From Desulforamulus reducens MI-1 (GTDB taxonomy: Bacteria; Bacillota; Desulfotomaculia; Desulfotomaculales; Desulfotomaculaceae): a stretch of 64,000 nucleotides of DNA. The translations under genes and the position numbers were made by a program. This document shows, in pieces, positions 8,115 through 18,005 of the stretch (the stretch's first letter is position 1; the number at the start of each line of letters is the position of its first letter). Under the pieces are notes generated by a model, which ran no database searches, had not been told where the DNA came from, and saw nothing but the letters and a program-made list of their open reading frames with translations. The stretch is from assembly GCF_000016165.1 (NCBI RefSeq), contig NC_009253.1, positions 1,150,332-1,214,331 of the forward strand, given 5' to 3'.

Positions 8115-8215
8115 GATTTAGATAGATTTCTTTTTTAAAGGCGATGGGGTAGAATAATAGCAGATTTAAGTAATTGTCAACTAATTGTGTTAAAGAAAAT
8201 ACAAGGAGCGATGTT

Positions 8216-9217
8216 GTGAGCGAGAAAGTTCTTACTCAAAAAGAAATTGATGAACTGTTTGCCAGATATGAAGAACAGCCAATAAAACAAGAAGCAAAAG
8301 ATCTCTTAAATATGCAAGAATTAGATATTATAGGTGAAATAGGAAATATTTGCATGGGTACTGCTGCCACTACCCTTTCACAGCTACTAAGTCAACGGGT
8401 AATCATCGGTTACCCTAAAATTATTGTTTGTCAACAAGATGAAGTTTTTGGCAGCTTCTCAACCCCTTATTTAATTATTGAGGTTCAATTTAAAGAGGGA
8501 TTGAACGGATTCAATGTTCTTGTTATCAATGAAGAAGAGATTGCTATCATTGCTGATATTATGATGGGCGGGAATGGGCAGGTCACAAAACCCGTTATGA
8601 TTACAGAGATGGAGTTAAGTGCTTCTACCGAGGCTATGAACCAAATGATTGGATCCTCGGCTACGGCAATGGCGGACCTATTTGGTATCGGTATTGATAT
8701 TGCTCCACCCAAAGCCACAATGGTTGAAGATTTGCTTAATGCTAGTCATACACCCTTACCAACGGATAAGCCTGTAGTGGTTGCCAGGTTTGAAATTACA
8801 ATTGGGGATATTATTAAGACAACCTTTATGCAAATAACCAACGTAGATGCAGCCCGTGACCAAGCGAACTACCTGTTGATGAAAGCAGGGGCCTGTGATG
8901 CAGAAAATACCGAGGAGAAGGCTAGTGACGAGACAGTTATACAAAACTTTACTCAAACGAAAGCACCTTTCGATTTACCAAACCTTGCTGGTGCCTTGGC
9001 TATCCCTGTGGATTTAGAGTTCTCACTGGGTAAAATTCGTTGTACCGCAGGAGACTTGGCAAAGTTGAAAAAAGGGGATACCCTAGCAATTCCTTTCTCA
9101 AGTCAACAAATTAAGCTCCTGGTGGGGGGAATACCAGTTGCCCTAGGAGAACTGCAGACCCATGCGGAAGAAACCAAGATCAAAATCAGCCGGTTGTACC
9201 AGAAGAGCATTAAATAA
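8216..9217 (+). CDS. CheC/FliY-type CheY-P phosphatase with FliN-like domain
   Basis: 333 aa from GTG 8216, chosen for AAGGAG at 8203-8208; the frame is open up to TTG 8174. Domains in order: an N-terminal CheY-P-binding peptide (LTQKEIDELFARYEE), then two CheC phosphatase motifs (DIIGEIGNICMGTAATTL and ELSASTEAMNQMIGSSATAM, each with the E-x2-N core). A C-terminal SpoA/FliN domain follows (IPVDLEFSLGKIRCTAGDL onward). This is the FliY architecture, which dephosphorylates CheY-P at the flagellar switch. No other flagellar gene is nearby: it sits alone behind spo0A, which is odd for fliY. It may be a stand-alone paralogue. Confidence 0.85.
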   Translation: MSEKVLTQKEIDELFARYEEQPIKQEAKDLLNMQELDIIGEIGNICMGTAATTLSQLLSQRVIIGYPKIIVCQQDEVFGSFSTPYLIIEVQFKEGLNGFNVLVINEEEIAIIADIMMGGNGQVTKPVMITEMELSASTEAMNQMIGSSATAMADLFGIGIDIAPPKATMVEDLLNASHTPLPTDKPVVVARFEITIGDIIKTTFMQITNVDAARDQANYLLMKAGACDAENTEEKASDETVIQNFTQTKAPFDLPNLAGALAIPVDLEFSLGKIRCTAGDLAKLKKGDTLAIPFSSQQIKLLVGGIPVALGELQTHAEETKIKISRLYQKSIK

Positions 9218-9392: not shown

Positions 9393-9560
9393 ATGGTAAG
9401 GAAAGTTGGAGCAACGGATAAAAAAGGCAAAGGCAGCCAAAGGAATGAAACTCATATGGCAGGGATAACAACTGCCTCTGATTTTATTCAAGAGAAAATG
9501 GCGAAGGAATCCGGGATTAAGCTAGACCAACACGTAAATGAATATTCACATTTAAAATAA
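9393..9560 (+). CDS. Tiny 55-aa protein, spore-protein-like (unrecognised family)
   Basis: ATG start behind AGGGGGG. The 55-residue product is polar and basic in its first third (VRKVGATDKKGKGSQRNE). It continues with TASDFIQEKMAKESGIKLDQ and ends SHLK. The segment E-K-M-x2-E-x-G-I matches E-E-L-x2-E-x-G-[IL] in the tiny genes at 40815 and 40999, which suggests one family of small, gamma-SASP-like or coat-associated proteins. It shares a bidirectional terminator with the convergent gene at 9583. The coding call rests on the ribosome site, the shared motif and the terminator at its stop; the function is unknown. Confidence 0.6.
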   Translation: MVRKVGATDKKGKGSQRNETHMAGITTASDFIQEKMAKESGIKLDQHVNEYSHLK

Positions 9561-9582
9561 CACCGCCAAATTAGCGGTGTTA
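9558..9582. terminator. Bidirectional terminator between convergent small genes
   Basis: TAACACCGC (9558-9566) / GCGGTGTTA (9574-9582), a perfect 9-bp stem with a 7-nt loop. It overlaps the stop of the 55-aa gene and abuts the stop of the minus-strand gene. Confidence 0.75.
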
Positions 9583-9807
9583 TTAGTATTCAATCTCTTT
9601 CTCAATGTACTCTTGACAATTTGCTTTAAAGTTATTTAATAATTTGTTGACCCGTTCTTGACCATAGCGTTGAATTAATTCGTAACCACTTACATAAGTA
9701 CACTTCTTTGTAATTTCTGGGATTGCTAGAATACAAGCTGGATGTACTCTTTTGTTTAATACGATCTTTCTTTGATATTTACAATTATCACAGGATGGAT
9801 TATTCAT
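9583..9807 (-). CDS. Small Cys-rich protein, probable zinc-binding
   Basis: 74 aa, ATG start behind GAGGGAGTGATGA. It contains CDNCKYQRK near the N-terminus plus single cysteines at PACIL, KKCTY and NCQEY, a pattern compatible with a metal site. The C-terminal half is helical (ELIQRYGQERVNKLLNNFKA). No family is recognised. It is transcribed against the 55-aa gene, and its upstream region (9808-10163) contains an unassigned hairpin. The gene is probably real from its ribosome site and convergent terminator; its role cannot be stated. Confidence 0.6.
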   Translation of the reverse strand: MNNPSCDNCKYQRKIVLNKRVHPACILAIPEITKKCTYVSGYELIQRYGQERVNKLLNNFKANCQEYIEKEIEY

Positions 9808-9926: not shown

Positions 9927-9965
9927 AAACTACGGCTTAAACGGGTATGCTTAAGCCGTAGTTTT
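9927..9965. other. Orphan hairpin in the 9808-10163 intergenic region
   Basis: AAACTACGGCTTAA (9927-9940) pairs with TTAAGCCGTAGTTT (9951-9964). It has T runs on both strands and so looks like a bidirectional terminator. However, no gene ends here: the flanking genes (minus strand 9583-9807 and plus strand steA) diverge from this gap. The remaining ~320 bp are AT-rich with no ORF I can support. Confidence 0.5.
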
Positions 9966-10163
9966 ATACAACGGAATTCGATACAGGTTTCTTAAAATAT
10001 TTGGCAAAAGCTACAAAAGAATAGCTATTTTAAAACTTATAAAAATAATTATATTTATCAGTTAAATAAAAAATAATTGGTAAAAAATAACATTAAATCA
10101 AATTGGGTATACTTGACTTAACGATTTTATAACATTAGAATGAAGTTGTTAAGGTGGTGATTT

Positions 10164-11291
10164 GTGCAAATGCATGTAAGATCAATCGCCCGCGTGGATA
10201 AAAGAACAAAAGATCTAGCAAAAAGAATTCATGCAAATGAAATAGCTGTGATATGTCATCATGAATTGGATAAAGTAGCAGCAGACTCCTTAATTGCAGC
10301 TAAAGTTAAAGCGGTAGTCAATGCTGTACCTTCACTAAGTGATGATTATCCTAACCTAGGTCCAATAACACTCCTCGAGGCTGGTATACCGATTATTGAC
10401 AATGTTGGAAAAGAAGTTATGGAAAAGATTCAAGATGGAGTAGAACTGGAGATACGAGGAAACGTTGTTTATCTGGGTGGACAAATCTTGGCAGATGGAA
10501 TGATATTAACTCTCCAGCAAGTTAAAGAACACATGGAACAATCCCGAAGCCGTATGGATCGGGTTTTATCCCGTTTTATTCATAATACACTGGACTACGC
10601 CAAAAACGAGGTGGATTTTGTTTGTGGCGGGTTACGCATTCCAGAAGTTGGTACAACCTTTAAAGGTAGGCATACCTTAATTGTTGTAAGGGGACACAAT
10701 TATAAACAAGATTTAAATGCAATTAAATCTTACATTGATGAAGTTCAGCCCATATTAATCGGTGTCGATGGGGGTGCTGATGCATTACTGGAGTTTGGCT
10801 ATACACCTGATTTAATTATCGGAGATATGGACAGTACCACCGATAAAGCCCTCTGTAGTGGTGCGGAGCTGGTTGTGCATGCCTATCCAGATGGCAGAGC
10901 ACCGGGCATGGAAAGAATTGAGGCCATGGGATTATCTGCTAAGGTGTTTCCGGCGCCGGGTACCAGTGAAGATATAGCCATGATGTTGGCCTATGAAAAG
11001 GGGACTGAATTGATCGTTGCTGTAGGGACCCACTCCAATATGTTAGATTTTTTGGAGAAAGGGCGTAAAGGGATGGCCAGTACATTCCTGGTTCGACTAA
11101 AGGTTGGCGATATTCTGGTTGATGCAAAAGGGGTTAGTCAACTCTATAAGAGTCGCGTTAAGATGAAATACATTGGCCAAATACTGCTGGCGGGGCTTGT
11201 CCCACTGGTGGTGGTTATTGCAATGGCTCCTCCCACCCGGGAGCTATTCCGGCTACTGGTACTAAATGTACGTTTAATCTTTGGTATTTAG
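10164..11291 (+). CDS. steA: SteA-like cytokinetic ring protein, thiamine-pyrophosphokinase fold
   Basis: 375 aa, GTG start. A central thiamin-pyrophosphokinase-like catalytic region is visible (LIGVDGGADALLEFGYTPDLIIGDMDS, then APGTSEDIAMMLAYEKG), preceded by an unrelated N-terminal domain. It ends in one transmembrane helix (YIGQILLAGLVPLVVVIAMAP) and a short tail. SteA of Corynebacterium has this make-up and partners with SteB at the division ring. Here steB follows at 11 bp, so the pair is intact. A genuine thiamine-PPi role is unlikely given the membrane anchor and context. The family is well supported; the division role is inferred from actinobacterial work. Confidence 0.82.
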   Translation: MQMHVRSIARVDKRTKDLAKRIHANEIAVICHHELDKVAADSLIAAKVKAVVNAVPSLSDDYPNLGPITLLEAGIPIIDNVGKEVMEKIQDGVELEIRGNVVYLGGQILADGMILTLQQVKEHMEQSRSRMDRVLSRFIHNTLDYAKNEVDFVCGGLRIPEVGTTFKGRHTLIVVRGHNYKQDLNAIKSYIDEVQPILIGVDGGADALLEFGYTPDLIIGDMDSTTDKALCSGAELVVHAYPDGRAPGMERIEAMGLSAKVFPAPGTSEDIAMMLAYEKGTELIVAVGTHSNMLDFLEKGRKGMASTFLVRLKVGDILVDAKGVSQLYKSRVKMKYIGQILLAGLVPLVVVIAMAPPTRELFRLLVLNVRLIFGI

Positions 11292-11302
11292 GAGGAAGTC
11301 CT

Positions 11303-12223
11303 TTGATTATTGATTATCGCTACCACATTGCTTCCTTAGTGGCTGTTTTTATTGCCTTAGGCATAGGAATTTTGGTAGGTAGTGCCGTGTTAGGAAATGA
11401 GGGTATTGTTGAGCGTCAAAAGCAACTGGCAGATCGCTTAGAAATTCAATTAGAAGAGCTAAGAGATAAGAATGAAGCTGTACAAGCCAGAGCCAATAAT
11501 CTTGAAATAGACAACAATATACAAAAACAGTTTGAGAAACAGGTGTTACCTCCGCTGGTGGCTGGAAAGTTATCTGGCAAAAGGTTAGCCATTGTAGAAA
11601 CCAACAGTTATGGCTTTCGTGATGATTTAATTAATGCACTAACGATGGCAGGTGCCACTGTACAGTCGGTAACAACCGTTTTAGATGGTTTTGAATTAAC
11701 CAATCGCAAGGACCGCATCATTAGTGAATTGAATCTTAAAGAAAATGAAGATGAAAAAATTATCAAATTGTTGGCAGCAGAAACAGCCAGAGGTATTTTA
11801 ACCGGTGAAAAACAGGCTATGCTAAATACTTTGGCTCAGGTGGACTTGCTTGAGTTGTCCGGAGACTATGGTGTACCGATTGACGGTATAATATTCATCG
11901 GTGGCAGTCAGGACCAAACTCTCGTTAAAACAGAGAATTTGGATTATCCCATGATAGATTATTTTTTACAACAAAAACTCCCTGTTTTCGGAGTTGAGGA
12001 AACGAATGTAACCTTTTCTTACATGAAGTCCTATCAGAAGAAAAGGGTCAGCACGGTGGATAACGTTGAAACGGTTCCAGGCCAACTGGCGCTTGTTATG
12101 GCTATTGCAGGGAAACCAGGACATTATGGGGTTAAGCCCACTGCCAAACAGTTACTGCCACCCTTTGAGACAACTGGAGGTGTAGGAAGTGGCCAAAGTG
12201 TCAGTGGTAATACCCGCCCATAA
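11303..12223 (+). CDS. steB: SteB/MctB-like membrane protein ('copper transporter' family)
   Basis: 306 aa, TTG start behind AGGAGG. One N-terminal transmembrane helix (HIASLVAVFIALGIGILVGS) is followed by a coiled coil (~residues 38-75, rich in Q/E/L) and an extracytoplasmic alpha/beta domain. The IDYRYHIASLVAVFIALGIGI start is the hallmark of the DUF3186/MctB family. Mycobacterial MctB is linked to copper export, while corynebacterial SteB forms a cell-division complex with SteA. Adjacency to steA favours the second role. The 3' end overlaps the next glycosyltransferase gene by 35 bp, which implies coupling. Confidence 0.8.
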   Translation: MIIDYRYHIASLVAVFIALGIGILVGSAVLGNEGIVERQKQLADRLEIQLEELRDKNEAVQARANNLEIDNNIQKQFEKQVLPPLVAGKLSGKRLAIVETNSYGFRDDLINALTMAGATVQSVTTVLDGFELTNRKDRIISELNLKENEDEKIIKLLAAETARGILTGEKQAMLNTLAQVDLLELSGDYGVPIDGIIFIGGSQDQTLVKTENLDYPMIDYFLQQKLPVFGVEETNVTFSYMKSYQKKRVSTVDNVETVPGQLALVMAIAGKPGHYGVKPTAKQLLPPFETTGGVGSGQSVSGNTRP

Positions 12224-12899
12224 TGAAGCCAATAGAATTTCCGATACCATAAAAGGAGTTCAAAGGATTCCGGAGGTATCGGAAATTCTTGTGATCGATG
12301 ATGCATCCACAGATGGCACCGCTGAACTGGCGGAACAGACAGGAGCTACCGTAATTAGATTATCTAAAAATATGGGAAAAGGAGGGGCACTAAACGCTGG
12401 GGTAGCCAAGGCTTCCGGTGATATAGTGGCCCTTTTGGATGGCGATTTAGGAAGCAGTTCCAGTGAAGCTAGAGCTCTTATATTACCGGTTTTACATAAT
12501 ACTGCCGATATGACCATTGCCCAATTTCCCCGTGCCAAGAAAAAGGGTGGTTTTGGACTGGTAAAAAATCTGGCCCGATCCGGTATCCGATATTATGCAG
12601 GCTTAGAAAGCAATGCTCCGTTATCCGGTCAGAGGGTGATGACCCGACAGGTGTTGGAAACAGTTGTTCCCTTTGCCTCGGGTTATGGTGTTGAAGTGGC
12701 CTTAACCATTAAAGTTGCCCGAGCAGGATTTCGAGTTCTTGAGGTCCCCACACAAATGTCCCACGCAGAAACCGGCAGGGACCTAAGGGGTTTTATGCAC
12801 CGTGGCAAACAATTTGTTCATGTGGCCAGGGTACTGGCGGGCTGTTTTGTACAATATGGTTTTAATGGTTTTACCAGCGCCAAGGGTTGTCAAAAATAA
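12189..12899 (+). CDS. Family 2 glycosyltransferase
   Basis: 236 aa, GTG start 7 nt after GGAGGTG and overlapping steB. It has a GT-A fold with SVVIPAHNEANRI, ILVIDDASTDGTAELA (first DxD-like), NMGKGGALNAGVAKASGDIV and LLDGDLG (second acidic motif). The layout resembles dolichol-phosphate mannosyl/glucosyltransferase-like or glucosyl-3-phosphoglycerate synthase-like enzymes; acceptor and sugar cannot be told. There is no transmembrane segment, so it is probably cytosolic or peripheral. Its place between steB and an MraY-like gene suggests a lipid-linked cell-envelope glycan made near the division site (inference). Confidence 0.88.
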   Translation: MAKVSVVIPAHNEANRISDTIKGVQRIPEVSEILVIDDASTDGTAELAEQTGATVIRLSKNMGKGGALNAGVAKASGDIVALLDGDLGSSSSEARALILPVLHNTADMTIAQFPRAKKKGGFGLVKNLARSGIRYYAGLESNAPLSGQRVMTRQVLETVVPFASGYGVEVALTIKVARAGFRVLEVPTQMSHAETGRDLRGFMHRGKQFVHVARVLAGCFVQYGFNGFTSAKGCQK

Positions 12900-13003
12900 A
12901 TTTGGCTAGAATGGGGTATAGTTAACCATCATAGGCAATATAGATAGGACTACCAATGCGGTGATAGAAAGGAACTAAGTTTTTAAAGTCCTTGAGGTGT
13001 ACC

Positions 13004-13840
13004 ATGACACAACTTACTTATGTTTATTTTATTGTTTCTTTGCTGGTCTCCTATGGGGTGGCCAGAATAATCCTGCCAAGCATTTTGAAACTGATTACAG
13101 AGGCGGGCTATGTTAGAGCAAATTTTCGAGGGGATGCTATTCCAGTTGGAGTAGGACTTGTGTTTTTTATAAGCGTCCTTTTACCAACAAGCTTTGTACT
13201 ATTCCTAAATACAGATAGGTACCAACCCAGTGCCTTGCTCTATTTATTCGTCCTAGGTTCTATGACATTATTGGGTATGACCGATGACATCTTTGGTTCT
13301 CGGGCAGATAGTGGTCTAAAGGGACATATTAAAAAGATGCTCCGGGGGGAATTAACAACCGGGGGGTTAAAACTGGCGGCCGGGGGCGTCATGTCTATGG
13401 TTGTAGCTGTATCCATTAGTAGTCACTGGCAAGATATTGTCCTTAATACTCTGGTGATAGCCCTTTCTATCAATGCAATCAATTTATTGGACCTTCGGCC
13501 AGGTCGGGCTGGCAAGGGTTTTTTATTAGGAGGCATCCTCCTGTTTCTGGGTGGTTGGCCATCCTTTAATCTGGTTTGGTATGTCATGACAATGGGTGCT
13601 TTGTTAGCTTACCTCCCTACTGACCTGAAGGCTAAAGCTATGATGGGCGATACCGGTTCCAATGCCCTGGGGGCCACCATAGGCATAACTTCTGTACTGG
13701 TGTTACCGGAAACGGTTAAAGTCAGTTACCTAGTATTTTTAATAGCCTTTCATTTATTTACAGAGAAGTACAGTTTAACAAAAATCATTGAAAAAAATAA
13801 AACGCTCAATTATTTGGACCAATTAGGAAGAAATCAGTAA
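13004..13840 (+). CDS. MraY/WecA-like polyprenyl-phosphate sugar-1-phosphate transferase
   Basis: 278 aa from ATG 13004 (an in-frame TTG lies at 12992). Multi-pass membrane protein with about 8-9 hydrophobic helices. It has the family acidic loops MTDDIFGSRADSGLKGHIK and NLLDLRPGRAGKG, plus MMGDTGSNALGATIGI. These match glycosyltransferase family 4 (MraY, WecA, TagO), which transfer a sugar-1-phosphate to undecaprenyl phosphate. It is shorter than MraY (~320 aa), and the adjacent genes are not mur genes, so it is probably not the main MraY. A terminator follows. It is the fourth gene of the steA-steB-GT2 cluster. Confidence 0.85.
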   Translation: MTQLTYVYFIVSLLVSYGVARIILPSILKLITEAGYVRANFRGDAIPVGVGLVFFISVLLPTSFVLFLNTDRYQPSALLYLFVLGSMTLLGMTDDIFGSRADSGLKGHIKKMLRGELTTGGLKLAAGGVMSMVVAVSISSHWQDIVLNTLVIALSINAINLLDLRPGRAGKGFLLGGILLFLGGWPSFNLVWYVMTMGALLAYLPTDLKAKAMMGDTGSNALGATIGITSVLVLPETVKVSYLVFLIAFHLFTEKYSLTKIIEKNKTLNYLDQLGRNQ

Positions 13841-13915: not shown

Positions 13916-13970
13916 CTCTCCCATGTATTAAGTTGGTTGACAGCAGTAGTAAAATTTGGAGGTGACCCTG

Positions 13971-15104
13971 TTGGTAAATAAAGAACGAATTATTCATGAA
14001 TTTTTGGAAATGGTTCAGGTGGACAGTGAGTCTGGTGCAGAACGTCAAATAGCTGATTTATTAAAGGATAAGCTTACAGTTCTGGGCCTTGAGGTCGTTG
14101 AAGATAACGCCGGTTCTCACATTGAAGTTGGCCAGACAACGGGGAACATTATAGGTACCTTACCAGCTAATGGAGGAAAGGGACCTCTTTTATTGTTCTC
14201 TGCTCATATGGATACAGTAAAGCCTGGTAAAGGTGTTAAACCGATAAGAGAAAAGGGGATCATTTCTTCTGCTGGTGATACGATCCTGGGTTCCGATGAT
14301 AAAGCAGGAATTGCAGCCATACTAGAGGCCCTTCGTGTAATTGAAGAAAAGCAAATCAAGCACGGAGGCATTCAAGTGGTCTTCACCATAGCAGAAGAAA
14401 AGGGGTTAGTTGGGGCTAAAAGATTGGACTATGCCCTAATAAAGGCAAAACTGGGTTTTGTTTTAGACAGTGGTGGATCTCCGGGGGAGATCATTATCAA
14501 GGCACCTACCCAGTATAGCTTTAAAGCCGCGGTAAAGGGAAAAGCAGCCCATGCAGGGATTGCTCCCGAACATGGTATTAATGCGATTGTTGTTGCCTCC
14601 AATGCCATTGCAAATCTAAAGCTTGGACGTATTGACAAAGAGACAACTGCCAATATTGGGTTTATTTCTGGTGGTGTAGCCACCAATATTGTTCCTGAAA
14701 AAGTGGTTGTGGAGGGAGAAGCACGAAGTATAAACCCTGCAAAGGCAAAGGAACAAATTGATCACATGATAGAAGAATTTGAAAAAGCTGCTGCTAAATT
14801 TAGCGCCAGTGTAGATATAGAACCGGTGAAGCAATATGATAACATTGATTTGGCTGAGGATTCTTTACCAGTGCAGATTGCCCTCAGGGCTGCAGAAAAT
14901 GCCCAAATAAAACCTCACTTGGGGCAGACTGGTGGTGGAAGTGATGCCAACGTCTTTAATGGCCAGGGGATTGCCTGTGCCAACCTTGGCATTGGCATGT
15001 CCAAGGTCCACACAACAGAAGAGTTTATCACCGAAGAACATTTGGTAGAAAACGCCAAGTATGTGGTGGAAATCATCAAGGTAGCCCAAGAAATAGGGGC
15101 CTAA
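13971..15104 (+). CDS. M20 family metallopeptidase (PepT-like)
   Basis: 377 aa from TTG 13971, chosen because GGAGGTG (13957-13963) is 7 nt upstream; the frame is open to TTG 13956. Zinc-ligand motifs are visible: LLFSAHMDTVKPGKG (His and Asp), ILGSDDKAGIAAILE (bridging Asp), FTIAEEKGLVGA (catalytic Glu pair) and GQTGGGSDANVF with a late HTTEEF His. A dimerisation insert lies in the middle (about 180-290). The family includes tripeptide aminopeptidases and carboxypeptidases such as B. subtilis YqjE; the substrate is not predictable. It is flanked by terminators, so probably monocistronic. Confidence 0.88.
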   Translation: MVNKERIIHEFLEMVQVDSESGAERQIADLLKDKLTVLGLEVVEDNAGSHIEVGQTTGNIIGTLPANGGKGPLLLFSAHMDTVKPGKGVKPIREKGIISSAGDTILGSDDKAGIAAILEALRVIEEKQIKHGGIQVVFTIAEEKGLVGAKRLDYALIKAKLGFVLDSGGSPGEIIIKAPTQYSFKAAVKGKAAHAGIAPEHGINAIVVASNAIANLKLGRIDKETTANIGFISGGVATNIVPEKVVVEGEARSINPAKAKEQIDHMIEEFEKAAAKFSASVDIEPVKQYDNIDLAEDSLPVQIALRAAENAQIKPHLGQTGGGSDANVFNGQGIACANLGIGMSKVHTTEEFITEEHLVENAKYVVEIIKVAQEIGA

Positions 15105-15205
15105 TGAATGGAATAAAAAATTCTCTAAGAGAAACTGAAAGGAAGCTAGAGAAAAAATAAAACCAGTGTGGTTTGTAGAGATTTTTCCCTTTAAGTTTAA
15201 GAATA

Positions 15206-15260
15206 AAGCTTTATGTAAATAATTAGGATAGAGATTTACTAATTAGTTTACATAAAGCTT
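15206..15260. repeat. Long AT-rich inverted repeat upstream of the DUF3866 gene
   Basis: AAGCTTTATGTAAA (15206-15219) is repeated exactly in inverse at 15247-15260. The inner AATTAG/CTAATT extends the stem across a 12-nt loop. It ends 6 bp before the AAGGAGG ribosome site of the next gene and lacks a T tract. An operator or a leader structure is more likely than a terminator. The rest of the 15105-15280 gap holds nothing I recognise. Confidence 0.5.
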
Positions 15261-15280
15261 AATTTAAGGAGGCCTTTGAT

Positions 15281-16366
15281 TTGATTCGCATTCGCCGAGG
15301 TGTGGCTAAGGAGATTACCTCGCGTAGACAAGGGATTACTGAGTTTCTCGTTTCAGTGGAGGGTGAAAACCAAAGGGCCGTAAATTATGATGACCTCACT
15401 GGGCCAGTGGAAACAGGTGACGAGGTTCTTTTAAATACCACCGCTGTGTATAAAAAATTGGGCACCGGGGGTGTTCATTTTGTTATGGGAAACCTGTCTG
15501 GTTCGGGGCACGATGTTTCGCAAGAGGGACATATTATGAAACTACGCTATAGCCCTTGTCAAGTAAAGGTAATCTCGGTGGAAGAACAGGAGAGTCCCTA
15601 TGCGGAGACTATGAATCAGGTGGAATCTCTGGCGGGAACCCCTGTAATTATAGGTACTCTCCATAGTATGCTGGCCCCGGTGGCTGCTGCCATAAAAAAG
15701 TTAAGCAAGGCTTCATTAAAGGTTGCTTACTTGATGACAGACGGTGCCGCTGTTCCCATAGGTTTATCTAGAATGGTTACGGAGCTTAAAAATAAGGGGC
15801 TAATTGATAAAACTATTACCTGTGGACATGCCTTTGGTGGAGATTTTGAAGCAATTAATATTTATACCGGGCTTTTAGCCTGTAGAGCGGTGGCGAAGGC
15901 CGATGTGATCCTTGTGGCCATGGGGCCTGGAATTGTTGGTAGCGGCTCCCGCTATGGTTTTACAGGAGTTGAACAGGGTGAGATCGTAAACGCAGTAAAT
16001 ATTCTTGGCGGCAAACCACTTACCATCCCCAGAATTAGTTTTGCAGATAACCGGGAGAGGCACCGGGGCATCAGTCATCATACACAAACAGCCCTGGGGA
16101 AAATTGCTTTAACCAAGTCCACTGTGGTATTACCAAAGTTGGCACCGGAAAAGATGGAATTGGTGTTTAAACAGTTGGAGGACAGTGGGATCAGCCAGAA
16201 GCATGATGTTGCCATTGTTGATGCTAGCCCGGCATTGGAAGCTCTGCAAGAATATAATATCAGGGTTACCACCATGGGGCGGTCCGTACAACAAGACCCG
16301 GAATTTTTCCTGGCAGCTGGAGCTGCGGGTGTTTATCTTATGGCTCACCTGGAAATGTTAGTTTAA
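15281..16366 (+). CDS. DUF3866 family protein
   Basis: 361 aa, TTG start behind AAGGAGG. The N-terminus (RIRRGVAKEITSRRQGITEF) and the GTGGVHFVMGNL segment are those of DUF3866. The rest is an alpha/beta protein with glycine loops (AMGPGIVGSGSRYGFTG) and no signal peptide or transmembrane segment. The family has no established function. It is commonly found close to spoIIM in spore formers, as here. Its 3' end overlaps the convergent mciZ-like gene by 9 bp. Confidence 0.85.
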   Translation: MIRIRRGVAKEITSRRQGITEFLVSVEGENQRAVNYDDLTGPVETGDEVLLNTTAVYKKLGTGGVHFVMGNLSGSGHDVSQEGHIMKLRYSPCQVKVISVEEQESPYAETMNQVESLAGTPVIIGTLHSMLAPVAAAIKKLSKASLKVAYLMTDGAAVPIGLSRMVTELKNKGLIDKTITCGHAFGGDFEAINIYTGLLACRAVAKADVILVAMGPGIVGSGSRYGFTGVEQGEIVNAVNILGGKPLTIPRISFADNRERHRGISHHTQTALGKIALTKSTVVLPKLAPEKMELVFKQLEDSGISQKHDVAIVDASPALEALQEYNIRVTTMGRSVQQDPEFFLAAGAAGVYLMAHLEMLV

Positions 16367-16489
16367 TTTGGCATTAATCAAGTTTTTTACGGTACCATAC
16401 TGTCTGGCATATTGCTGAATAAGTTTACATAAATCACTCGCCTTGCAAAGGAAGTAAATTCGGTCTGAGTAAACATAAAGTTGTGACAT
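16358..16489 (-). CDS. mciZ: 43-aa MciZ-like FtsZ inhibitor peptide
   Basis: A small ORF on the minus strand, ATG at 16489, with AGGAGGG 6 nt upstream. The peptide reads MSQLYVYSDRIYFLC then KASDLCKLIQQYARQYG and TVKNLINAKLN. From memory of B. subtilis MciZ (40 aa), the second part aligns without gaps: K-A, acidic-aliphatic, Y-x-R-x-aromatic, V-K-x2-I at matching positions. MciZ blocks FtsZ assembly in the mother cell. In B. subtilis mciZ also maps close to spoIIM, and a sigma-E-like promoter precedes this copy. The coding call is strong from the ribosome site; the MciZ identity is a motif and synteny inference. Confidence 0.6.
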   Translation of the reverse strand: MSQLYVYSDRIYFLCKASDLCKLIQQYARQYGTVKNLINAKLN

Positions 16490-16517
16490 GTTTGTCCCTC
16501 CTTATTGGTTATGGGAC

Positions 16518-16546
16518 AGTATATGAAGAGCACTCTGACTTTATGA
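16518..16546 (-). promoter_or_regulatory. Putative sigma-E promoter of the mciZ-like gene
   Basis: On the minus strand, -35 TCATAAA (16546-16540), 14-bp spacer, -10 CATATACT (16525-16518). Sigma-E consensus is KMATATT-N14-CATACAnT. A start near 16510 would leave a ~20-nt leader containing the ribosome site. Fit is good at -10 and fair at -35. Confidence 0.45.
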
Positions 16547-16583
16547 ACCAGATTAAATAGATAATAATTGAAGGGAGTACTTT

Positions 16584-17252
16584 ATGAAATTACTAACCCT
16601 CAGTGCCAATGCCAGTGGGGCAGCAAAGGCCGCCCAGGAGGGGATGGTGGTGATGGTGGTGGATATTATTGATATGTCCACTACCCTGGAAGCAGCCATT
16701 GATGGCGGGGCTCTGGCAGTGCTGGGAGCAAGTCCTGATACTTCGGCACCACCAGTAGCTCTTAATCCAGAGGCTATTGGTCAAAGAGCAGCTCAGCTTG
16801 CACTGGCCGCAGGAAGCAGTGTGATATTGGTGACGGAGCCTAGGGTAGGTACAGATTATGATCGGGCTAACAATGCTTCACGACTGCTGAAGGGTGTTCG
16901 ACAGGGAGGGGGAGAAGTGACATCAATTATCCCTAACCTAGGTGCAGAAACACCTAAAATTTGCGACTTGGCAGGAAAAGTTGTGGTAGCGGCCACGGGG
17001 ACTGGAGGGGTTGCCTACGATGCGGCCTTTACCGCCGGTGCACCTGCAGTTATCACCGGAACTGTTGCCCGAACTATGAAAAAAAAGGGATCTGCTCCGG
17101 CCAGAGCGGCTGCCCGCAGGGCCATTGAAGCAGCCACACAACATCAAACAGGGATTTGTGTGGTGGCAGCCAGTGCTAATTCCCTGGAAGATGTGCTGGC
17201 CGCAGAATATATTATGAAGATGATTGTGGAAGAAGGCTTTTTAACGCTATAA
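16584..17252 (+). CDS. ComB-like (2-phosphosulfolactate phosphatase fold) protein
   Basis: 222 aa, ATG start behind GAAGGGAG. The VVMVVDIIDMSTTLEAAIDGGALAVLGASP segment in the N-terminal half parallels the VVIDVLRATTT-type core of ComB. Later glycine/alanine-rich strands (VVVAATGTGGVAYDAAFTAGA) also fit. ComB dephosphorylates 2-phosphosulfolactate in coenzyme M and sulfolactate pathways, but no other such gene is nearby and B. subtilis relatives are only partly understood. The assignment is to fold level. A terminator follows directly. Confidence 0.55.
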   Translation: MKLLTLSANASGAAKAAQEGMVVMVVDIIDMSTTLEAAIDGGALAVLGASPDTSAPPVALNPEAIGQRAAQLALAAGSSVILVTEPRVGTDYDRANNASRLLKGVRQGGGEVTSIIPNLGAETPKICDLAGKVVVAATGTGGVAYDAAFTAGAPAVITGTVARTMKKKGSAPARAAARRAIEAATQHQTGICVVAASANSLEDVLAAEYIMKMIVEEGFLTL

Positions 17253-17258
17253 GAATAC

Positions 17259-17288
17259 AAACCCTGGCTATGATAGCCAGGGTTTATT
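17259..17288 (+). terminator. Terminator after the ComB-like gene
   Basis: AAACCCTGGCTA (17259-17270) / TAGCCAGGGTTT (17274-17285), a perfect 12-bp stem followed by ATT. Confidence 0.75.
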
Positions 17289-17298
17289 GATCTACCTG

Positions 17299-17328
17299 TA
17301 CTATTTACCAGATAGATCCGCATAGATA
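17299..17328 (+). promoter_or_regulatory. Possible sigma-E promoter of spoIIM
   Basis: TACTATT (17299-17305), 15-bp spacer, CATAGATA (17321-17328) approximates KMATATT-N14-CATACAnT. spoIIM is sigma-E dependent in B. subtilis. The site would place the transcript start after the upstream ATG at 17328, supporting the later start codon. Confidence 0.35.
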
Positions 17329-17372
17329 TGTACAGAAATCTCCAACAGAATGGATATGGGCGGGGTGATCCC

Positions 17373-18005
17373 TTGGCAAATGCATTCAAAAAACTATGCA
17401 GATCTTCCTTACGGGACAGTTGGCCAATTTATTTACTGGCTCTTATTACGTTAATGGCAGGAATTGGCTTTGGCAGCTTGGGTGTACATGCAATGCAGGA
17501 TGAGACATTTGGACAGCTTACGGAATATCTGGATAACTTTATAAGTAAGGCCGGCAGCGTAATTGTAGATCGACCTCTGGTTGTAAAAAATACAATCCTT
17601 AATAATTTATTGTTTATTGGGATTATTTACTTTCTTGGGCTAACAGTGGTTGGGACCCCGGCCATTTTGGCTCTTTTATTTGCCCGGGGTTATTCTTTGG
17701 GGTTTACCTTTACTTTTCTTACCCGCCAAAGGGCAAGTGAAGGGATTGTTCTTGCTTTAACCTCTGTGGTACCGCAAAACATTCTACTTATACCGGCCAT
17801 TTTTTTAGCCAGTGTGGCAGCATTATCTTTTTCATGGTTACTTATAAAAAGATTTTCCAATTCAAGATTACCTGTAATGCCGGGGTTAGTTGGCTATCAT
17901 GTTTTAATGATGATTGTCTGTAGCATAGTAGCTGCTGCTGGACTGGTAGAAGCATTTATTACCCCAGATTTAATAAAGGCCGCCGCAAATTTTATAAATT
18001 CGTAA
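17373..18005 (+). CDS. spoIIM: Stage II sporulation protein M
   Basis: 210 aa from TTG 17373, preferred over ATG 17328 because GGGGTGAT precedes it and a sigma-E-like promoter overlaps the earlier ATG. B. subtilis SpoIIM is about this length. It is an integral membrane protein with about five helices (IYLLALITLMAGIGFGSLG; LLFIGIIYFLGLTVVGTPAILALLF; NILLIPAIFLASVAALSFSWLL; a C-terminal helix). SpoIIM acts with SpoIID and SpoIIP in septal peptidoglycan removal and engulfment. Its neighbours (xerD, deoB, dacF, sigF) match the Bacillus region. Confidence 0.92.
   Translation: MANAFKKLCRSSLRDSWPIYLLALITLMAGIGFGSLGVHAMQDETFGQLTEYLDNFISKAGSVIVDRPLVVKNTILNNLLFIGIIYFLGLTVVGTPAILALLFARGYSLGFTFTFLTRQRASEGIVLALTSVVPQNILLIPAIFLASVAALSFSWLLIKRFSNSRLPVMPGLVGYHVLMMIVCSIVAAAGLVEAFITPDLIKAAANFINS

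Follow-up and report, generated by a model that had tools for sequence, protein, structure and literature searches.

A conserved clostridial gene block joins SteA and SteB to a GT2 glycosyltransferase and a PNPT-like protein, possibly as one module of the cell envelope

In the genome of Desulforamulus reducens MI-1 (a single contig of 3,608,104 base pairs (bp)), we have analyzed a stretch of 64,000 nucleotides, positions 1150332-1214331, hereafter the window. It contains a block of four genes encoding SteA, SteB, a GT2 glycosyltransferase and a membrane protein of the PNPT superfamily (PNPT-like protein). We propose with moderate confidence that these four proteins work together as a single functional module of the clostridial envelope, which would produce a lipid-linked saccharide in a division-coupled manner. 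The genes are conserved in their linkage and are jointly present or jointly absent, the magnesium-binding and DxD residues of the two enzymes are intact, and the counterparts in Clostridioides difficile are essential according to published data; the module's reaction, donor, coupling and site are inferred.

The families named in the initial annotation were recovered for all four genes, which lie on the plus strand and have family matches over cut-off. Its description of steA, steB and the GT2 gene as overlapping or abutting also holds, with a gap of 11 bp and an overlap of 35 bp, respectively. The GT2 and PNPT-like genes are separated by 92 bp, in which no promoter-like site was found on the plus strand.

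10164 to 11291, plus strand: steA, 375 amino acids, with a TPK-like domain and a SteA-like C-terminal membrane tail (NF040608)
10764 to 10835, plus strand: SteA pyrophosphokinase-like motif VDGG..D ... PD...GDMDS, residues 201-224
11303 to 12223, plus strand: steB (MctB family), 306 amino acids, with a hydrophobic N-terminal stretch, then a coiled-coil-like stretch (PF11382)
12189 to 12899, plus strand: GT2 glycosyltransferase, 236 amino acids (PF00535)
12438 to 12446, plus strand: DxD motif of the GT2 protein, D84 and D86, invariant in 47 sequences
12992 to 13840, plus strand: PNPT-superfamily membrane protein, 282 amino acids (PF00953); start codon uncertain, with an ATG at 13004
13472 to 13516, plus strand: PNPT loop NxxNLLDLRPGRAxK in place of the canonical NxxNLxDGLDGLA
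13640 to 13660, plus strand: PNPT motif MMGDTGS with the Mg-ligand equivalent D220, aligned to FMGDTGS in MraY of the same genome

Conservation and joint loss of the block

A family scan of the genome collection with the PNPT-like gene returned at least 568 relatives, of which the best 80 loci were fetched; the closest relatives of the protein include those of Desulforamulus aeronauticus and D. putei (71-75% identity). The four genes have one order (steA-steB-GT2-PNPT) and one strand in 75 of these 80 loci, the other five being cut by a contig end, with median gaps of 19, 19.5 and 21 bp between the genes. Since the best 80 loci represent the closest relatives, we added an even sample of 249 genomes drawn from the phylum of C. 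difficile with a requested completeness of 95%. SteA is present in 157 and SteB in 156 of them. The PNPT subfamily occurs in 155 of the 157 genomes with SteA (weakest E-value 4.6e-27) and, at E below 8.9e-10, in none of the 92 genomes without SteA, where the best match has an E-value of 8.9e-10. In the two SteA genomes without a match to the subfamily, the locus lies at a contig end. Among the matches listed, 133 genomes have all four genes, and the block is contiguous in 109 of these. SteB is found elsewhere in 16, with SteA, GT2 and PNPT together, and GT2 in six, with SteA, SteB and PNPT together, the last two being split between contigs; the PNPT gene stays with SteA in all 131 unsplit cases. 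A lack of linkage outside close relatives had been named in the initial annotation as an outcome that would refute its reading, and the linkage held across this phylum sample. Thermoanaerobacterium saccharolyticum (L108) likewise carries the block.

The GT2 family separates less cleanly, as seven SteA genomes have it at only 1e-42 to 1e-49 and the best paralogue in SteA-less genomes reaches 2.9e-42. In two of the seven (L147 and L148), whose loci were read with the enzyme genes present, a divergent GT2 gene is in place. Two apparent cases of SteAB without the PNPT gene (G213 and G240) were discarded: both stretches are cut off by a contig end, either within steB or shortly behind it, hence the missing gene is not evidence of absence. 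A GT2-PNPT fusion, read from long open frames in genomes G278, G132, G204 and G171, was also rejected; the DNA of loci L114-L117 contains two separate overlapping open reading frames (ORFs), which in L116 lie in different frames.

At the level of the window's class, the presence of SteA, SteB and PNPT was read per genome in 113 genomes, with a SteA that is partial at a contig edge scored as present and TPK-level matches left out. All three are present in 75 genomes and all absent in 34. The remaining four are partial: in G008, G011 and G059 genes are incomplete or lacking, for the most part at contig ends, and in G040 nothing but fragments of the PNPT gene remains. The absences within the class correspond to a single family with some 25 genomes and to scattered, nearly complete genomes (G031, G066, G068 and G071; 97-99% complete) that sit in families otherwise having the block.

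The wider stretch recN-spoIVB-spo0A ... spoIIM-xerD-deoB around the block is likewise conserved in the 80 related loci. Together with the ability of SteB or GT2 to move away, this favours a different and, in our opinion, unlikely explanation, namely that an ancient gene order has merely been preserved, with SteAB serving division and the two enzymes belonging to an unrelated envelope pathway. Such an explanation is, however, hard to reconcile with a PNPT subfamily that accompanies SteA in 155/157 genomes and is found in 0/92 others, with the near-overlap of the genes, with the persistence of the block in loci that no longer have the sporulation neighbours, and with SteA, GT2 and PNPT remaining together in the 16 genomes from whose block SteB is displaced.

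The displaced genes have neighbours of their own. The displaced steB shares a run of upstream genes in 15 of the 15 loci fetched for the 16 genomes (L119, L121-L128, L140-L145). In L119 this run reads polA-mutM-mntP-coaE-SLT-QRPTase-SBP5 (SLT, lytic transglycosylase); in the other loci the genes were assigned through similarity clusters alone, and individual genes of the run are absent from some loci. The displaced GT2 gene adjoins the gene of a YkuD-type L,D-transpeptidase-like protein in six of seven loci (L129, L130, L132, L133, L136 and L137), with the Pfam name YkuD assigned in L129 only. Each set of displaced genes may be one clade, and as evidence for partners these neighbours are only suggestive. 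Two loci titled as Actinobacteria and Armatimonadetes metagenome-assembled genomes (L075, L093) have the clostridial gene order with Spo0A, and these titles are probably misassigned.

The proteins encoded by the block

The PNPT-like protein reaches only 32.2 bits with PF00953 (cut-off 27) and stays below the cut-off of the MraY equivalog TIGR00445 (23.2 versus 192.05 bits). Its predicted model (pLDDT 94.2) matches MraY with a Z score of 24.6 and DPAGT1 with 23.9, the first unrelated row following at 6.0. Canonical MraY and WecA-type proteins are encoded separately in the genome and are longer (334 and 361 versus 282 amino acids). In an alignment of 56 PNPT-like sequences, the DD pair (residues 98 and 99), N164 and D220 are invariant (56/56), and the same is true for N161, N164, D167, R169, P170, G171, R172 and K175 of the loop. 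The loop register was set with hhalign against the MraY and WecA-like proteins of the same genome; from there we take the shared NxxN and GDxGS motifs to lead to the DPAGT1 numbering. In this register N164 and D220 correspond to Asn185 and Asp252 of DPAGT1, its Mg ligands (PMC6218659). The residue that hydrogen-bonds uracil (D196 in MraY, Asn191 in DPAGT1; PMC6218659, PMC8954382) is P170 in 56/56 sequences and stands between invariant arginines (RPGR). RPGR is kept in more distant members as well, with 2/16 sequences giving no motif match. Judged from these sequences, the PNPT-like protein seems to have kept the metal chemistry and changed the nucleotide recognition. As the uracil-contacting residue has become a proline, the protein may not recognise its donor as a uridine nucleotide, and UDP-GlcNAc, the candidate donor of the initial annotation, is disfavoured: the proline in all 56 sequences speaks against an ordinary UDP-sugar enzyme. 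A Pfam search of the C. difficile orthologue gave no match at E<=0.01, which may explain why this gene is poorly annotated.

The same proline could also belong to a pseudoenzyme, i.e., a lipid-binding or scaffolding relative, which we regard as improbable. The reduced length of the protein fits this possibility, as does the HHH/HIH-type loop, which is not recognisable; invariant E258 and S261 are found at the C-terminal end, and the hhalign profile alignment ends before them, ahead of the comparison with the HHH of MraY. Yet the equivalents of the Mg ligands and the DD pair are complete in 56/56 sequences, and the new invariant charged residues R169, R172, K175, H112 and K127 suggest a re-tuned active site rather than decay.

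The GT2 protein matches PF00535 with 95.8 bits (cut-off 23.3), and the invariance of its DxD motif derives from alignment A3. The best fold matches of its predicted model (pLDDT 94.5) are GpgS, followed by MpgS, ArnC, dolichol-phosphate mannose synthase and GtrB; by fold and by sequence alike, GpgS (glucosyl-3-phosphoglycerate synthase) is the best solved match. The protein falls far below the equivalog cut-offs of both GpgS (NF010496, 91.8 versus 262 bits) and AglJ (91.7 versus 325 bits) and has its own conserved signature, SGQR and ETGRDxxGFxHRGxQ. It may add a sugar to the PNPT product or may be a polyprenyl-phosphate-sugar synthase.

SteA is recognized by NF040608 (division_SteA) with 510.8 bits (cut-off 150) and contains PF12555 (62.4 bits) and the TPK-like PF04263 (32.4 bits, cut-off 30.7). 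Among solved structures it matches 9hmy (E=1.6e-69 over 323 residues) and 9hmz (E=2.4e-51), the next match in the PDB being 6-hydroxymethylpterin pyrophosphokinase (E=1.8e-4). VDGG and GDMDS are complete in 74/74 aligned clostridial SteA proteins, more distant members have GDMDS in 18/18 and VDGG in 12/18 cases, and the layout of the motif matches that of the genome's own TPK, GVDRGAY...PDMAIGDFDS. Going by the aligned residues, the pyrophosphokinase-like motif is complete in clostridial SteA and partly missing from two actinobacterial SteAs. UDP or GDP stabilises SteA of Corynebacterium glutamicum, while M. tuberculosis SteA gave an inconclusive result (PMC12977500). Because of this stabilisation and the kept motif, a nucleotide-handling role for SteA beside two nucleotide-sugar enzymes is plausible.

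SteB, which starts 11 bp after steA, belongs to the MctB family (PF11382, 198.6 bits, cut-off 25.6) and has no match among PDB sequences at E<=0.01. For actinobacterial SteAB the output is given as RipA (PMC12977500) or, in a competing account, as the MtrB kinase (PMC12338722). A coiled-coil (CC_PcsB) M23 hydrolase, encoded in the window's genome after an FtsX-like gene (L158 1486-2610, minus strand; the label FtsX-like is our own reading), is a candidate SteB output.

The C. difficile counterpart and the question of sporulation

In C. difficile, CDR20291_1053-1057 are listed as essential genes without an assigned pathway (PMC12548448, Table 2). The C. difficile locus among the related loci (L070) encodes SteA, SteB, GT2, the PNPT-like protein and a DUF3866 protein of 373, 291, 230, 274 and 355 amino acids, respectively. 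Lengths and order are identical to those of CDR20291_1053-1057, hence these are the same five genes. Knockdown of CDR20291_1053-1056 (1057 was not targeted) causes strong viability defects with chaining, short, swollen and phase-bright cells, and similar shapes result from knockdown of the PS-II wall-polymer genes and of pbp2/rodA (PMC12548448). A role in the cell wall or in division, as expected in the initial annotation, thus gains support from published data. The names SteA, SteB and MctB are absent from the main text of that paper, the section consulted on its RFP screen in C. difficile makes no mention of the proteins of the block, and a search with the locus-tag names of C. difficile 630 gave nothing relevant. 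Since the block is kept across Clostridia and is needed for growth of C. difficile, the four genes probably build and monitor some part of the cell envelope.

Essentiality could also arise indirectly if the glycan itself were dispensable and its interruption trapped undecaprenyl phosphate, or if polar effects were responsible. The same caveat about trapping has been raised for PS-II (PMC12548448), and polarity onto the DUF3866 gene would act in the same direction. Trapping, however, requires a working first step, yet the PNPT-like protein, the presumed first enzyme, is itself called essential (PMC12548448), and we hold this explanation to be quite improbable.

In most of the 80 related loci steA is directly downstream of spo0A, and a published account finds steAB behind spo0A in part of the Bacillota and suggests a possible sporulation role (PMC12977500). 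Nevertheless, recN-steA-steB-GT2-PNPT-DUF3866 is kept in Peptostreptococcus sp. D1 and MV1, P. canis and Peptacetobacter hominis (L077, L111, L079 and L082), and whole-genome searches found no Spo0A over cut-off in these four Peptostreptococcaceae (G115, G124, G116 and G117), while eight of the twelve tested genomes have one. Since these four keep the block, it is not tied to sporulation, and the emphasis initially placed on a spore-forming host was misleading. In addition, C. difficile is said to need these genes for its vegetative growth (PMC12548448), and we consider it highly improbable that the module serves sporulation.

The proposed module, its surroundings and known systems

In the proposed module, the PNPT-like protein would transfer a phospho-sugar, or a similar group, from a nucleotide-activated donor to polyprenyl phosphate, after which the GT2 enzyme would add a sugar to the resulting lipid or would make a polyprenyl-phosphate sugar. 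SteA may bind the nucleotide part on the cytoplasmic face and, via SteB, couple synthesis to the cutting of the cell wall at division, with a coiled-coil hydrolase as the most likely output of this coupling. The septal polymer proposed in the initial annotation may be a product of the module.

Several points weigh against this proposal. The displacement of SteB in 16 genomes and of GT2 in six shows that full clustering is not obligatory, and the counts of presence and absence ignore shared ancestry. Pfam annotation of the neighbouring genes at 13956-18005 brought up neither a flippase nor a polymerase or ligase, distant genes not having been searched. The known SteB output is missing: the window's genome encodes only two NlpC/P60 proteins, which have LysM or SH3-like N-terminal parts, and neither contains a coiled coil of the RipA type. 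For C. difficile, the authors of PMC12548448 consider terminal morphology to be loosely tied to function and polarity to matter; as the genes form one operon, the four knockdowns are not four independent results. Lastly, the literature yielded no enzyme assay, lipid or localisation for any clostridial member.

Around the block, the following further elements were identified in the window:

9927 to 9964, reported on the minus strand: terminator-like inverted repeat of 16 pairs upstream of the cluster, a consensus match only
10113 to 10141, plus strand: sigma-70-like promoter candidate TTGACT-17-TAGAAT just before steA, with 10/12 matches
15281 to 16366, plus strand: DUF3866 gene, a possible fifth member (PF12982, 476 bits)

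The promoter candidate is weak, with 15 sigma-70-like sites found versus 12.5 expected in shuffles, and a search of the window against Rfam matched no RNA element. DUF3866 has 67 matches among the 80 related loci and directly follows the PNPT gene in Peptostreptococcaceae, while in the window a gene for an M20 peptidase separates the two. Between spo0A and steA, a fliY-type flagellar switch gene is located at 8174-9217. FliY had no match in any of the 80 loci, hence it looks like an insertion particular to the window's genome or its close kin. Between fliY and steA there are two small ORFs (9394-9561 and 9583-9807), the second of which, on the minus strand, encodes a cysteine-rich protein of 74 amino acids with no Pfam match. 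Near spoIIM, a conserved ORF of 222 amino acids (16584-17252) has no Pfam match over cut-off and 26 matches in the 80 related loci.

The presence of SteAB in Clostridia and the essentiality in C. difficile are both already in print; what is new is the four-gene module and the PNPT variant. In literature consulted largely outside subscription journals, and in the portions of text available, we found no paper that connects clostridial SteAB with the essential genes of C. difficile, that joins SteAB with the two transferases or that describes the four-gene module. The analysis joins a regulator of cell separation, SteAB, to an essential five-gene cluster of C. difficile that stands separately in print. 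It puts a name to the missing biochemistry, a PNPT-like enzyme whose nucleotide pocket seems altered together with the GT2 partner, and it argues against the suggested sporulation role. An essential envelope step that is absent from many other bacteria would also be of interest as a drug target.

Each part of the block resembles a known system and differs from it in specific elements. CDR20291_1053-1057 of C. difficile have the same five genes, order and lengths, and appear in print as unassigned. The PNPT-like protein has the fold, the DD pair and the Mg-ligand Asn and Asp in common with MraY, WecA and DPAGT1, whereas RPGR with its proline is its own. Similarly, the GT2 protein shares the GT-A fold and the DxD motif with GpgS (GT81), AglJ, ArnC and dolichol-phosphate mannose synthase, but the SGQR/ETGRD signature is specific to it.

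In actinobacteria, SteA and SteB (TapA and MctB) are encoded by adjacent genes as well (PMC12977500, PMC6705760); in Clostridia, the pair is followed by the GT2 and PNPT-like genes. The two solved actinobacterial SteAs read GVGTGAD...GDPDQ and GVDGAAD...GNPTG where clostridial SteA keeps VDGG and GDMDS. A speculative reading, to which we give a low probability, is that the clostridial block represents a fuller form of SteAB. SteA would then be an enzyme handling nucleotides or pyrophosphate and would either supply the donor of a PNPT-type transferase without uridine recognition or turn this donor over, and a new kind of lipid-linked saccharide would result. Genome G130 gives a hint in this direction: it has no SteB match, and its SteA (L149 3413-4402, 329 amino acids) is devoid of the membrane tail, while SteA, GT2 and PNPT are kept with the SteA and RPGR motifs intact. 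Actinobacterial SteAB would, by the same reading, be a form that has lost both transferases and part of the SteA active site.

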